Positions 33,617-41,807 of a stretch of 42,344 nt of DNA are shown here, in pieces. The notes beneath the pieces were generated by a model. That model was not told the DNA's origin and made no database searches. It saw only the letters and a list, made by a program, of their open reading frames with translations. Position 1 is the first letter of the stretch. The number at the start of each line of letters is the position of its first letter. The stretch comes from Gammaproteobacteria bacterium (GTDB taxonomy: Bacteria > Pseudomonadota > Gammaproteobacteria > Ga0077536). Where the stretch lies: contig JAUIFX010000013.1 in NCBI GenBank assembly GCA_030429865.1, positions 1 through 42,344 of the forward strand, written 5' to 3'. The translations under genes were made by a program, and so were the position numbers.

Positions 33617-34486
33617 GTGTCCGAAATCCAATTCGCCACACCACAAACGGTCAAGGAAGCCGTCAAATGCCTGGCCGGCGCCAAGGGCAAGGCCAGGGTA
33701 CTCGCCGGAGGCACCGACCTGCTCGTACAACTGCGCGCAGGCTTCGTGCGTCCCGGCCTCATCGTCGACATCAAGCACATCCCCGAGCTGCGCAAGGTCA
33801 AGCGCGAGGACGGCGGATTCCGCATCGGCGCCGCCGTCTCGGGCGCCGAACTCGGCGCCAACGCCGCGGTCAAGAAGGCCTGGCCGGGCGTCGTCGAAGG
33901 CCTCGAGCTGATCGGCTCGACGCAGATCCAGGGCCGCGCCTCGCTCGGCGGCAACCTGTGCAACGGCTCACCCGCGGCCGACAGCGTGCCGGCCCTGATC
34001 GCGGCCGCTGCGACCTGCCACATCGCCGGCCCCAAGGGCACGCGCGAGGCCAAGGTCGAGGACATCGTCAGCGGTCCGGGCAAAACGACCCTGAAGCCGG
34101 GCGAATTCGTCGTCAGCTTCTTCCTGCCCAAGCGTCCCAAGCGTTCGGGCGACGCCTACCTGCGGCTCATTCCGCGGACCGAGATGGACATCGCCGTGGT
34201 CGGCGCCGGCGTCAGCCTGGCGCTGGATTCGAAAGGCGTCTGTACCGAGGCGCGTGTCGCCCTCGGCGCCGTCGCGCCCAAGGCCGTGCTGGTCAAGGCG
34301 GCCGGTAAAGCCCTCGTCGGCACCAAGGTCGACGACGCCGCGCTCGAAGCGATGGCGGCAGCCTGTCGCGACGCCTGCAAGCCGATCGACGACAAGCGCG
34401 GCACCGTCGCGTACCGCACCAAGGTGGCCGGGGTTCTCGCCCAGCGCGCCGCCCGCATCGCGCTCGCGCGCGCCACCGGAGAATGA
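33617..34486 (+). CDS. Molybdenum hydroxylase FAD subunit (CoxM-like)
   Basis: A 289-aa medium subunit of a xanthine dehydrogenase-family enzyme. The FAD-binding signature AGGTDLLVQLRAGFVRPGLIVDIKHIPEL is followed by GSTQIQGRASLGGNLCNGSPAADSVPAL, which binds the pyrophosphate. A C-terminal CO-dehydrogenase-flavoprotein domain ends YRTKVAGVLAQRAARIAL. The GTG at 33617 is chosen for the GGGGGGAAC ribosome site. It is the first gene of a FAD, Fe-S, Mo subunit operon in the CoxMSL order, 10 bp before the next gene. It carries electrons from the Fe-S clusters to the outside acceptor. Confidence 0.92.
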   Translation: MSEIQFATPQTVKEAVKCLAGAKGKARVLAGGTDLLVQLRAGFVRPGLIVDIKHIPELRKVKREDGGFRIGAAVSGAELGANAAVKKAWPGVVEGLELIGSTQIQGRASLGGNLCNGSPAADSVPALIAAAATCHIAGPKGTREAKVEDIVSGPGKTTLKPGEFVVSFFLPKRPKRSGDAYLRLIPRTEMDIAVVGAGVSLALDSKGVCTEARVALGAVAPKAVLVKAAGKALVGTKVDDAALEAMAAACRDACKPIDDKRGTVAYRTKVAGVLAQRAARIALARATGE

Positions 34487-34496
34487 GGCAAGCACG

Positions 34497-34973
34497 ATGG
34501 CCAAACACCACGTCACCACCACCATCAACGGCGACCCGGCCGAATTCCTCTGCGAGACGCAGCAGACCCTGCTCGACTGCCTGCGTGACGAACTCGGCCT
34601 GACCGGCAGCAAGGAAGGCTGCGCATCCGGCGACTGCGGCGCCTGCAGCGTGATGCTCGACGGGCGCCTCGTGTGCGCCTGCCTCGTGCTCGGCGTGGAA
34701 GCCGAGGGCGCCACGATCGAGACCATCGAGGGCGTCGCCCAGGGCGACGAACTGCACCCGCTGCAGAAGCACTTCCTCGAGGACGCCGCGCTGCAGTGCG
34801 GCGTGTGCACGCCGGGCTTCATCGTCGCGGCCAAGGCGCTGCTCGAACACAACCCCGACCCCACCGAGACCGAGGCCCGCTACTGGTTGGCGGGCAACCT
34901 GTGCCGCTGCACCGGTTACGACAAGATCATCAAGGCCGTGATGAATGCCGCGGCCGAAATGCGAGGAGCATGA
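34497..34973 (+). CDS. Molybdenum hydroxylase 2Fe-2S subunit (CoxS-like)
   Basis: A 158-aa small subunit with both iron-sulfur clusters. The plant-ferredoxin-type cluster is ligated by [22 protein letters not shown] (residues about 41-62); the second by [17 protein letters not shown] and [15 protein letters not shown] near the C-terminus. It passes electrons from the molybdenum site to the FAD subunit. The ATG at 34497 starts [16 protein letters not shown]; the ORF-track extension to 34254 lies in the FAD gene and is rejected. The Mo-subunit gene begins 3 bp after its stop. Confidence 0.94.
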
Positions 34974-34976
34974 GCC

Positions 34977-37265
34977 ATGGGTAACGAAGAAGATATCGGC
35001 AAGATCATCGATTACAGCGGGCGCGAGTTCCAGTACATCGGCAAGCGCACCATCCGCCCCGACGGCGTCGACAAGGTCACCGGCCGCGCCAACTTCGGCG
35101 CCGACTTCACCGTCAACGGCATGATCCACGGCCGCGTCGTGCGCAGCCCGCACGCGCACGCGAAGATCAAGAAAATCAATGTCGACAAGGCGCTCAAGCT
35201 CGACGGCGTGAAAGCCGTGATCACGGGCAAGGACTTCCCCGAGATCGACATCAACGACAAGGCCGTGGGCGAAGTCGTGGTCAGCTACTACGACATGGCG
35301 CACAACATCATCGCGCGCGACAAGGTGTACTACGACGGTCACGCCGTCGCCGCGGTCGCCGCGACCACGCCGGACATCGCCGAGAAGGCGGCCAAGCTGA
35401 TCGAGGTCGAGTACGACGTCCTCAAGCCCGTGATGACGGCCGCCCAGGCGATGAAGAAGAACGCCCCCGTGCTGCACAAGCACATCCACACGGCGGGCGT
35501 CGAACCCGCGCCCGAGAAGCCGTCCAACGTCGCCAGCCGCACCGAGTTCAAGCTCGGCGACCCGGCGGCGGGCTTCGCCGACGCCGATGTCATCGTCGAG
35601 CGCGAGTTCTCGACGCAGACCGTGCACCAGGGCTACATCGAGCCGCACGCCTGCTGCGCGAGCATTTCCGCCGATGGCAACACCAACATCTGGTGCTCGA
35701 GCCAGGGCCAGTTCATGGTCCGCGCCTACACGGCCAAGATCTGCGGCATGGAAACCTCCAAGGTCAAGGTCATTCCGGCCGAGATCGGCGGCGGCTTCGG
35801 CGGCAAGACGGTCGTCTACCTCGAGCCGCTCGCGGTGATGCTGGCGAAGAAGGCCGGCCGCCCGGTCAAGATGGTGATGACCCGCGACGAAGTGCTGCGC
35901 GCCACCGGTCCGACCTCGGGCGGTACCGCGCGGGCCAGGATCGGCGCGAAGAAGGACGGCACCATCGTTGCCGGTGAACTCGAACTGGTCTACGAGGCCG
36001 GCGCCTATCCCGGTTCCCCGGTAGCACTCGGCTGCATGACCGGCTTTGCGCCCTACGACATCAAGAACGTCTCCTGCGTCGGCTGGGACGTTCTCGTCAA
36101 CCGGCCCAAGGCTGCCGCCTACCGCGCGCCCGGCGCGCCGGTCGCCGCCTTCGGTGTCGAATGCACGCTCGACGTGCTGGCCGAAGAGCTCGGCATGTGC
36201 CCGCTCGAACTGCGCATGAAGAACGCCGCGGTGGAAGGCACGCAGGCGCCCTACGGCGTCAAGTTCAACCGCATCGGCTACAAGGAAACCCTGGAAGCGG
36301 CCAAGGCACACCCGCACTGGAGTGCCCCGCTAGGCCCCAACCAGGGCCGCGGCATTGCCTCCGGCTTCTGGTTCAACATCGGCGGTACTTCGAGCGCCGA
36401 GGTCATGGTCAACGAGGACGGTACCGTCATCGTCGCCACCGGCAACCCGGACATCGGCGGCTCGCGCGCCTCCATGGCACTGATGGCGGCCGAGGTGCTC
36501 GGCATCGACGTCGCGCGCATCAAGCCGCTCGTCGCCGACACCGAGTCGGTGCCGTTCTCGATGCTGACCGGCGGCTCGCGCGTCACCTTCGCGACCGGCA
36601 AGGCGGTCATCGAGGCGGCCCAGGACGCGGTCAACGATCTCAAGCGCCGCGCGGCCAAGATCTGGGACGTCGACGTCGACCAGGTCGAATGGGAGAACGG
36701 CCAGGCGGTGTGCATCGAGTCGACCCAGCACAAGCCGCTCAGCATCGCGGCCATCGCGGCCAAGGCCGACAAGACCGGCGGCGCGATCAGCGGGCGCGCC
36801 AACATCAACGCAACCGGCGCGGGCCCGGGCTTCGGCACGCATATCTGCGACGTCGAAGTCGACCCGGAGACCGGGTACGTCACGGTGCTGCGCTACACCG
36901 CCATCCAGGATGTCGGCAAGGCCATCCATCCGAGCTACGTCGAGGGCCAGCTGCAGGGCGGTGCCGTGCAGGGTATCGGCTGGGCGCTCAACGAGGAGTA
37001 CGTCTACAGCGAGGACGGGCGCCTGCTGAACACCGGCTTCCTCGATTACCGCATGCCGGTGGCGTCGGACCTGCCGATGATCGACACCGTCGTCGTCGAG
37101 GTGCCCAACCCCGGGCATCCCTACGGCGTGCGCGGCGTCGGCGAGACGCCCATCGTGCCGCCGCTAGCGGCAGTGGCCAACGCCGTGTCGCATGCCATCG
37201 GCAAGCGTGTCACGGACCTGCCGCTGTCGCCGCCGCGCCTGCTCGCGGTCATCGACGGCAAGTAG
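34977..37265 (+). CDS. Molybdenum hydroxylase large (molybdopterin-binding) subunit (CoxL-like)
   Basis: A 762-aa catalytic subunit of the xanthine dehydrogenase/aldehyde oxidase family. Motifs are [11 protein letters not shown] and RSPHAHAKI near the start, [10 protein letters not shown] (cofactor contact), the active-site loop [14 protein letters not shown], and [11 protein letters not shown] with the conserved catalytic Glu. The loop is AYRAPG rather than the AYxCSFR of true CO dehydrogenase, so CO oxidation is not supported. Other substrates, such as aromatic or N-heterocyclic compounds or aldehydes, are possible. AGGAG precedes the ATG. With the adjacent CoxM- and CoxS-like subunits it forms a three-subunit cytoplasmic enzyme. 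A MoaD-like gene follows after 19 bp. Confidence 0.92.
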
Positions 37266-37820: not shown

Positions 37821-38249
37821 TCAACCGCTGCGGCTGACCACGGCGGCCGTCGCGATGAGTTCGTCGAGCAGGGCCAGGCTAGCGCGCGCCGGCCAGGCGA
37901 AGGGATCGAGCACGGCCTTCTCGCCATACTTGAGCAGCAGGGACGGATTCACCCGCGCGGCATTGACATAGCCCATGGTCCAGCCGCCGAAACGGCGCTC
38001 GTCGATCTCCGAGTAGCTCAACAGACGTACCTGCTCGTGGCGATCGTCGCGCACGATCGCGTTGTAGAGCTCGCAGACCTCGTCACGTCCCCCCTCGAGG
38101 ACCTGCATGAACAGCCGGTCGTGGTAGACGAGGATCCCGGTGATGCCGCGTGCCGGGTTGCCTTTCAATGACTGCGCGAGGATCGCGTCGATGACGCTGG
38201 TGCTGAGTGGCGCGGCCGGACGGCTCGCGTAGAGGAGTCGGACGAGCAT
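37821..38249 (-). CDS. BLUF domain blue-light photoreceptor
   Basis: A 142-aa single-domain protein of the FAD-binding BLUF family. Residues that define the photocycle are present: Y7 in RLLYASR, N31 in GNPARGITGIL, Q49 in LFMQVLEGG, and W90 in RRFGGWTMGY; HEQVRLL is also typical. Blue light changes hydrogen bonding between flavin, Tyr and Gln. There is no output domain, so it must act by binding another protein. It starts 2 bp after the folE stop on the same strand, so it is almost certainly co-transcribed with folE and may depend on its translation. The short C-terminal helix (LALLDELIATAAVV) could be the contact surface. Confidence 0.92.
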   Translation of the reverse strand: MLVRLLYASRPAAPLSTSVIDAILAQSLKGNPARGITGILVYHDRLFMQVLEGGRDEVCELYNAIVRDDRHEQVRLLSYSEIDERRFGGWTMGYVNAARVNPSLLLKYGEKAVLDPFAWPARASLALLDELIATAAVVSRSG

Positions 38250-38251
38250 GT

Positions 38252-38965
38252 TCAGCGCTTCAAATCGATGAGGGAGAGAAACTCACGGCGCAAGGCCGCA
38301 TCCTTGAGGAACGAGCCGCGCATGACGCTGTTGACCATCTTCGTCGCGGTGTCCTTCACGCCGCGCCAGTGCATGCAGTAGTGGTCGGCCTCGAACACCA
38401 CGGCGAGCCCGTCCGGACTGACCTTGCCCATCAGCAGGTCGGCGAGCTGGATGATCGCCTCCTCCTGGATCTGCGGCCGGCTCATGACCCAATCGGCCAG
38501 CCGGTTGTACTTCGACAGTCCGATCAGGTTCGAATGTTCGTTCGGCATCAGGCCGACCCACAGGCGGCCGATGATGGGGCACAGGTGGTGACTGCAGGTG
38601 CTGCGCACCGTGATGGGCCCGACGATCATCAGCTCGTTGAGCCGCTCGACGTTCGGGAACTCGGTGACCGGCGGCGCCGGCGCATAACGGCCGCGGAACA
38701 CTTCGGTCAGGAACATCTTGGCCACGCGGCGCGCCGTTTCCTGCGTGTTGTGGTCGCTGTCGGTATCGATCACCAGGCTCTCGAGCACGTCGCGCATGCG
38801 CGCCTCGACTTCGTCGAGCATCTGTTCGAGTTCGCCGTCGGCAATGAACTCGGCGATGTTGTCGTTGGCATGGAAACGCTGGCCGGCATCGAGGATGCGC
38901 TCGCGGATACGACGCGAAACCGGCATCGTGCTGCCCTGTTCCGGAGGGTTCGCGGGATCGTTCAT
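38252..38965 (-). CDS. folE: GTP cyclohydrolase I
   Basis: A 237-aa type I (FolE) enzyme that converts GTP to 7,8-dihydroneopterin triphosphate, the first step toward folate and other pterins. Zinc ligands are in TCSHHLCPIIG (Cys, His) and in HYCMHWRGV (Cys); GLSKYNRLADW and the VKDTATKMVNSVMRG region are conserved. Start is uncertain: ATGs at 38989, 38965 and 38926 all fit because the first 20-30 residues are poorly conserved; 38965 is a middle choice. The BLUF gene follows after 2 bp. It lies divergent from nothing nearby, with about 250 bp upstream to the VOC gene, room for a promoter. Confidence 0.93.
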   Translation of the reverse strand: MNDPANPPEQGSTMPVSRRIRERILDAGQRFHANDNIAEFIADGELEQMLDEVEARMRDVLESLVIDTDSDHNTQETARRVAKMFLTEVFRGRYAPAPPVTEFPNVERLNELMIVGPITVRSTCSHHLCPIIGRLWVGLMPNEHSNLIGLSKYNRLADWVMSRPQIQEEAIIQLADLLMGKVSPDGLAVVFEADHYCMHWRGVKDTATKMVNSVMRGSFLKDAALRREFLSLIDLKR

Positions 38966-39219
38966 GGGGGCTGCGGTCTCGTCGTGCATGGCGGAGCAGT
39001 CGCCGCCATCGCGGCCTGCTGGCGGCATGAGTGCCGCGCGGCCAGACAGTGTACGGCGCGGCGTGCGAAATTCAAACGTACCCGCAACAGGGACATTCCG
39101 CGCCAGCGTCGCGCAGGCGCCGTCGCAGCGGCGCGAACCCGCGAAGCCGGCGGCTCGCGCCCGTGGCGGCGCGGGCGCGCGGAGGCCTCGCGCCGCGCCT
39201 CCGGCCAGGCGCGAAGCGT

Positions 39220-40678: not shown

Positions 40679-40945
40679 ATGATGATCTCGCTACGCGATT
40701 GCATGGAGTATCTTCACCTGACGAACGAAGAGATCGACGCGATTGCGGAGCACGAGCACGTGCCGCCGATCATCGCCGCCGAGCTCGGCGCCTACCTGAC
40801 CGCGAACGAAGCCGGCGAGCGCATGCTCAAGCGCATGATCCTCGACGACATCATGCACGCGGCCGACCACGGTGACATTGCCCGCGTCGAGCAGCTCACC
40901 CAGGTCCTCAAGCACTTCATCGCCACCCACCCGGATCTGGATTGA
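40679..40945 (+). CDS. Small helical protein of unknown function
   Basis: An 88-aa acidic, all-helical protein (MMISLRDCMEYLHLTNEEIDAIAEHEHVPPIIAAELG). The GGGAGG ribosome site directly before tandem ATG codons supports it as real. No membrane segment or signal peptide. The AIAEHEHVP and MILDDIMHAADHGD stretches are reminiscent of a small conserved proteobacterial family whose name I cannot give; no catalytic motif is evident beyond several His/Asp/Glu residues. It precedes the ion channel gene by 58 bp and may share its transcript. Confidence 0.75.
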   Translation: MMISLRDCMEYLHLTNEEIDAIAEHEHVPPIIAAELGAYLTANEAGERMLKRMILDDIMHAADHGDIARVEQLTQVLKHFIATHPDLD

Positions 40946-41003
40946 ACGCGGGCTCCGCCCTCGATGGCCGTGCGGCCGGCGACGACATGGGGATGTCGCC
41001 ACC

Positions 41004-41807
41004 GTGAGTGAAGACATCGCGCGGCCGCGTCGCGACGCCGCACCACTGTTCGCGCGAATCGACCGCCTCTACCACGGACACGATGCGCCGGCGCAGCGTT
41101 TCCGCTGGGGGCTGTTGTTGTTCGATGTCGTCTGCATTCTTTATTTCGTCGTTGCGTCATTCCTGCACCATGTCGACGATCTGCACATCATCGAGGAACT
41201 CATCGGCATCCTCTACCTCGCCGAGTGGTCGGCGCGCTGCTACATCGCCCGCGGACGCCTGCGCTTCGTATTCAACCCGGTCGGACTCGCCGACCTCGTC
41301 GTCATCTGCTCACTGCTCGCGCCTAGCCTCACCGAGAACTTCCTTTTCCTGAGAGTGATCCGCGCCCTGCGCCTGCTGCGCTCCTACCATGTCATCCGCG
41401 AGCTTCGCGAGCATTCGCGTTTCGTGCGCAGGCACGAAGACATCATCTTCAGCGTGGTCAATCTGCTCATCTTCATCTTCGTGATGACCGCCTTCGTCTA
41501 CGTCCTGCAGATTGGCCGCAACCCGGCGATCAGGGAGTACGTCGATGCGCTCTACTTCACCATCACGGCGCTGACGACGACGGGTTTCGGCGACATCACG
41601 CTGATCGGCACGAGCGGCCGCATCCTCGCCGTGCTCATCATGATCTTCGGCATCTCTCTGTTCCTGCGCCTCATCCAGACGATTTTCCGCCCGGAGAAGG
41701 TACGCTTCGAGTGCCCGGCCTGCGGGCTCGTACGGCACGACAACGACGCCGTTCACTGCAAGCACTGCGGCGCGCTGCTGCACATCCAGACCGAGGGCAG
41801 CATCTGA
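41004..41807 (+). CDS. Voltage-gated-type potassium channel with C-terminal zinc ribbon
   Basis: A 267-aa six-transmembrane channel subunit. S1 to S3 lie at about 35-55, 63-82 and 94-108. S4 is LFLRVIRALRLLRSYHVI with Arg at every third position (117, 120, 123, 126). S5 is at 148-169, the pore helix EYVDALYFTITAL, selectivity filter TTTGFGD (191-197) and S6 at 206-226. GFG predicts K+ selectivity. After S6 a short tail has CPAC (237-240) and CKHC (252-255), a rubredoxin-like zinc ribbon facing the cytoplasm. The GTG at 41004 is the best in-frame start, though its ribosome site is weak. A metal- or redox-sensing gate is an inference. Confidence 0.88.
   Translation: MSEDIARPRRDAAPLFARIDRLYHGHDAPAQRFRWGLLLFDVVCILYFVVASFLHHVDDLHIIEELIGILYLAEWSARCYIARGRLRFVFNPVGLADLVVICSLLAPSLTENFLFLRVIRALRLLRSYHVIRELREHSRFVRRHEDIIFSVVNLLIFIFVMTAFVYVLQIGRNPAIREYVDALYFTITALTTTGFGDITLIGTSGRILAVLIMIFGISLFLRLIQTIFRPEKVRFECPACGLVRHDNDAVHCKHCGALLHIQTEGSI

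Follow-up and report, generated by a model that had tools for sequence, protein, structure and literature searches.

The window analysed here, the whole 42,344-nucleotide stretch of a contig from a gammaproteobacterial genome, carries on its minus strand a folE gene (38252-38965; 237 aa) for a GTP cyclohydrolase I of a divergent clade, recognised by PF01227 (E=8e-42) and PDB alignments, and behind it a gene (37821-38249, minus strand; 142 aa) for a stand-alone PixD-like BLUF photoreceptor (PF04940, E=3.8e-29). The initial annotation had placed the BLUF gene two bases downstream of folE, and the open reading frames bear this out: the folE stop and the BLUF ATG are separated by 2 nt (38250-38251, minus strand), a gap that, compared with the junctions of relatives, is among the shortest of the usual ones (median 8 nt in one set, 5 nt in another). 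Such a junction implies co-transcription; folE and BLUF would thus share one transcript, and the BLUF gene probably lacks a promoter of its own. Alignment by eye of the sequences upstream of folE, whose start at 38965 is the conserved one, pointed to a candidate sigma70-like promoter of the putative unit (39048-39075, minus strand), with TTGAAT (39075-39070) and TACACT (39053-39048) set 16 nt apart, a spacing identical in the relatives G014 and G020 in the same comparison; the candidate scored under threshold in a consensus scan. No other PF01227 gene was found in the genome, from which PF02649 (folE2) is absent, and therefore this folE is probably the sole entry into folate synthesis (genome completeness 95.7%). 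Two further BLUF genes lie elsewhere in the genome. No light genes surround the pair in the window: its neighbours there encode a glyoxalase, a hydrolase, an ion channel and a molybdenum hydroxylase set. The molybdenum hydroxylase-type set (33617-37265) adjoins the pair on the opposite strand and comprises FAD-binding-like, 2Fe-2S-like and molybdopterin-binding subunits, and the ion-channel protein (Ion_trans/Ion_trans_2; 40872-41807) bears a zinc-ribbon-like segment at its C-terminus.

The window FolE holds the zinc and substrate motifs CSHH, GLSK, PQIQE and HYC and, scoring far above the PF01227 cut-off, qualifies as a GTP cyclohydrolase I, the nearest solved fold being that of decameric GTP cyclohydrolase I. 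Among 278 relatives it belongs to a clade of its own, with 67-79% identity within the clade and about 30-44% to other FolEs. It misses the NCBIfam folE equivalog TIGR00063 (146.3 bits vs 181.6 required); being under this cut-off though encoded by the only PF01227 gene of its genome, it suggests that annotation pipelines may under-call the clade. Pterin demand via phenylalanine hydroxylase was discarded for the window genome, which has no PF00351, as was the demand of a classical photolyase for an antenna. The antenna-cofactor variant of the initial annotation is therefore weak here, the only FAD_binding_7 match of the genome being a DPRP-type photolyase-like protein. The DPRP-type class uses a ribolumazine antenna.

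The BLUF protein comprises a BLUF domain (residues 2-93), its single Pfam domain, followed by C-terminal helices with a conserved output region (residues 96-140). The photocycle residues Y7, S9, N31, Q49, W90 and M92, which had already been noticed at the outset, are indeed all there, and they are 99-100% conserved in 85 homologues. The nearest solved sequence is PixD, and the AF2 model (pLDDT 86.8, pTM 0.83) matched PixD structures 1X0P and 2HFN in Foldseek with TM-scores of 0.88-0.92, so that the window BLUF shares with PixD (Slr1694, TePixD) its length class, fold, photocycle residues and C-terminal output helices. To our knowledge, short BLUF proteins are widespread and a partner is known for few of them. 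In the folE-linked BLUFs the tail is conserved nearly as well as the core (61% vs 65%), whereas in other BLUFs it is far more variable (12% vs 38%); with core identity matched at 0.5-0.6, tail conservation was still 0.58 in folE-linked proteins as against 0.29 in the others, in a comparison whose control has only 13 pairs. Such a conserved output surface suggests a single conserved partner. The PixD crystal shows two stacked pentamers, with signalling via the C-terminal helices (PMC5899715), and by analogy the window BLUF may assemble into pentameric rings. The likeness does not extend to the partner: that of PixD is the response regulator-like PixE, which serves phototaxis (PMC5899715), whereas the window BLUF is linked to a metabolic enzyme gene and no PixE gene was seen alongside; the pair has no response-regulator gene next to it in the window, and none recurs among its neighbours.

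A survey of folE-BLUF adjacency, as proposed with the initial annotation, revealed that the arrangement is not peculiar to the window, so that the refuting condition set there, adjacency in this one place, does not hold. Among the 278 relatives the FolE clade occurs in 8 genomes, in 7 of which BLUF adjoins FolE. In named genomes, scanned by BLUF alignment for the best 80 of more than 560 relatives, most loci are from Betaproteobacteria and some from MAGs that bear an alpha- or gammaproteobacterial label, and a FolE of the clade lies directly upstream of BLUF, at a gap of 2-76 nt, in all 78 testable loci, the other two being cut by a contig end. Cultured carriers include Vogesella, Chitinimonas, Caldimonas, Aquabacterium, Sphaerotilus and Cupriavidus metallidurans CH34, the last with its pair on megaplasmid NC_007974.2 (BLUF at 558041-558454, folE at 558484-559191). 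The pair is likewise adjacent in 127 of the 143 genomes of family f107 (that of G141) with FolE matches listed. Of 379 genomes sampled across the phylum, 18 have the FolE clade and 12 of these have it paired with BLUF, and in this sample BLUFs of at least 54% identity all sit next to folE, weaker ones never. One exception to strict pairing is the draft genome G352, in which BLUF lies on one contig and a partial match to FolE on another. The flanks are far less constant: all of the 86 loci compared have BLUF, and FolE is missing only from contig-cut ones, but the next commonest neighbour, an EamA transporter, reaches just 21/86 and every other at most 16. FolE and BLUF distances covary (Mantel r 0.61; permutation maximum 0.15). 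Because the pair is kept in hundreds of genomes, its adjacency is not a matter of chance. Gene order thus gives solid grounds for regarding folE-BLUF as a conserved module, co-oriented, near-overlapping and kept across many families while the flanks change; as judged from these surveys, it is present in hundreds of species, mostly betaproteobacterial.

The BLUF gene has been lost behind folE about 11 times by parsimony, and the persistence of FolE in these lineages indicates that BLUF is dispensable. In BLUF-less genomes the position behind folE has closed up, and no substitute photoreceptor was seen there. On the other side, BLUFs of the folE-linked subfamily are practically never found away from folE, so that, in terms of gene content, the dependence is one-sided: folE persists alone, BLUF practically never does without folE. 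A FolE subclade of 12 members (L157, L163, L165, L167, L169-L172, L187 and L191-L193) was never seen with BLUF; it includes second folE copies and copies from LitR-type clusters, and 4 of its members keep the E143-H144 motif.

The initial annotation had also raised direct control of FolE by the BLUF protein, an idea to which FolE residues with BLUF-dependent constraint lend indirect support. On a tree of 203 BLUF-linked and 12 BLUF-lost FolEs, with 11 losses by parsimony, the strongest excess of changes on BLUF-less branches fell at E143 (7 of 14 changes), K221 (7/15) and H144 (7/19), against an expected 7.6%, as counted by simple parsimony on only 12 lost sequences, with 7 changes per site, from lineages that evolve faster overall. 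In 2000 draws of a matched null, in which linked tips were matched to the lost set for substitution number as far as possible (somewhat fewer in the null, 268 vs 346), a best site this extreme was met in 0.15% (P 0.0015) and a second-best site this extreme in none (0/2000). All three residues are nearly invariant as long as BLUF is there and drift once it is lost: E143 is kept in 197 of the 203 linked FolEs vs 4 of the 12 lost ones, and H144 in 185/203 vs 3/12. The locus L174 combines an aberrant BLUF (37% identity) with changed FolE residues (QS at the 143/144 motif). Within the sequential antiparallel sheet of FolE, the 141-146 loop and residue 221 should share one end of the barrel. K221 aligns with E236 of human GCH1, the residue after R235; within the stimulatory complex R235 forms a hydrogen bond to GFRP, and its mutation abolishes stimulation by GFRP and phenylalanine (PMC7750480). 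The constraint on these FolE residues thus depends on BLUF, as direct control would predict, whereas their co-change with BLUF is not significant: no FolE-BLUF residue pair survived correction for multiple testing, and only weak, non-significant hints linked A135 and L114 of the BLUF tail with FolE K221. A model of the read-through FolE-BLUF fusion (TGA as Trp; L150, 20 rows) reached a mean pLDDT of 57, with the FolE part mostly below 50, and gave no usable interface.

Several relatives place the pair, or its folE, in surroundings related to light. A MerR gene with B12-binding domains (LitR/CarH-like) is divergent from folE-BLUF in L080, along with CFA synthase and DUF2878; in L085 and L087 the gene directly upstream of the pair encodes a B12-less MerR, and L087 also has a DPRP photolyase in the cluster; DUF3429, lipocalin and amine-oxidase-like flavoprotein genes are near it in L088, and the L082 pair likewise sits in a light-type neighbourhood. 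BLUF-less folE genes of the clade keep similar company: in Burkholderia anthina with MerR, photolyase, CFA synthase, lipocalin, DUF2256 and DUF2878, in G734 inside a LitR-type light cluster, and on a Caballeronia plasmid (L191:8968-10696) where a MerR gene overlaps the folE start and, at a distance of about 8 kb, a photoactive yellow protein is encoded. LitR/CarH light clusters (photolyase, CFA synthase, lipocalin, DUF2878) thus embed some folE-BLUF pairs and several BLUF-less clade folE genes, whereas the window pair and most others stand alone outside them; the LitR/MerR-photolyase-CFA synthase neighbourhood seen in several relatives is absent around the window pair. A precedent is found in Pseudomonas mendocina, where a different folE operon, folM-folE-folX, is light-inducible via a short LOV protein and a class II LitR (PMC9758184), so that a blue-light photoreceptor gene is again near a light-induced GTP cyclohydrolase I (PMC9758184). 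There, however, the LOV protein works through a MerR regulator on transcription, whereas folE-BLUF mostly lacks a regulator gene and has BLUF directly behind folE. Taken together, this cluster context and the light-inducible folE of P. mendocina make a light role of folE-BLUF likely. The proposal in the initial annotation that light sensing is tied to pterin supply is well supported by the conservation of the pair and by the LitR/photolyase clusters that hold several pairs and BLUF-less clade FolEs.

How BLUF could act on FolE is suggested by the animal enzyme. The GCH1 decamer has D5 symmetry and carries as caps a pair of pentameric GFRP rings that set its activity (PMC7750480), and since a PixD-like ring and this decamer share fivefold symmetry, direct docking is favoured. 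We propose that the BLUF protein, PixD-like and without an output domain, signals to FolE through its C-terminal helices, that a fivefold BLUF ring binds the FolE decamer at the face of matching symmetry, the counterpart of the GFRP docking face in animals, and that blue light, by altering this contact, would alter the flow from GTP to dihydroneopterin triphosphate and hence to folates and other pterins. The position of the BLUF-dependent K221 beside the GFRP-contact residue R235 fits this scheme; GFRP itself differs in that it is not a BLUF protein and senses phenylalanine and BH4 instead of light, and BLUF docking is hypothetical. Direct contact between the two proteins is plausible from the sequence evidence. 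To the reading as a whole, namely that the two form a light-response pair and that a PixD-like BLUF ring, docked in a GFRP-like manner on the FolE decamer, tunes pterin synthesis, we give nearly an even chance. Its more specific form, BLUF as a light-switched allosteric subunit of FolE whose ring caps the decamer at the GFRP-type face, giving light control of the only pterin/folate entry enzyme in non-phototrophic proteobacteria, we put forward tentatively, as possible and somewhat doubtful. A raised pterin supply for photo-oxidative repair would be the likelier sign of the light effect, because photolyase-like and LitR genes keep company with the pair.

A serious rival, which we hold to be rather unlikely, is that both proteins belong to a shared regulon serving the light or photo-oxidative stress response and that BLUF acts, without touching FolE, on some other, unlinked partner. 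The pairs inside LitR-type clusters and the BLUF-less clade folE genes in such clusters are what a shared regulon would produce, and co-transcription alone would explain the tight junction. It accounts less readily for a BLUF gene that stays behind folE where the light cluster and all other neighbours are gone and is practically never elsewhere, or for candidate FolE surface residues that drift after BLUF loss. An improbable alternative is a transcriptional loop in which BLUF controls a regulator driving folE (e.g. a MerR of the class II LitR type), on the model of short LOV and PmlR2 in P. mendocina. The B12-less MerR gene upstream of the pair in L085 and L087 and the precedents of short LOV/PmlR2 and BluF/BluR (PMC9758184) would suit such a loop, but most pairs have no MerR gene nearby, and the L085-type MerR has no match in the window genome (G000) or its sister G001.

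Mere historical linkage, an old insertion of BLUF behind a housekeeping folE that was kept only for steady expression, seems very improbable. It would agree with folE being the only PF01227 gene found in the window genome and with its plausible sigma70-like promoter; against it stand the independent chromosomal contexts of the pair, its recurrence as a unit in G721, a genome from a different class, and the BLUF-dependent constraint in FolE.

PixD-type BLUFs, FolE, GFRP and LitR clusters are already known, whereas no description of the folE-BLUF pair was found in the open-licence library searched. Since gene order points to one partner in hundreds of species, among them the culturable C. metallidurans CH34, the question can be put to a direct test. 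Were FolE under the control of BLUF, the supply of folates and pterins would be set by blue light in many heterotrophs, vitamin-cofactor production would be light-controlled in bacteria that do not photosynthesise, and the pair would represent a bacterial counterpart of the GCH1-GFRP complex and a ready-made optogenetic enzyme switch.

Related loci provided two further observations. A related BLUF gene of 139 aa that is not linked to folE (L184:4093-6376; G377) lies directly upstream of moaA, for a GTP-consuming step of molybdenum cofactor synthesis, which is followed by mobA-like and moeA-like genes, a second case of BLUF beside a GTP-derived pterin cofactor pathway. In G437 (L179:4980-7470), a BLUF gene (37% identity) is flanked by a glutathione-peroxidase-like gene on one side and a classical photolyase gene on the other, and a lipocalin gene is close by.
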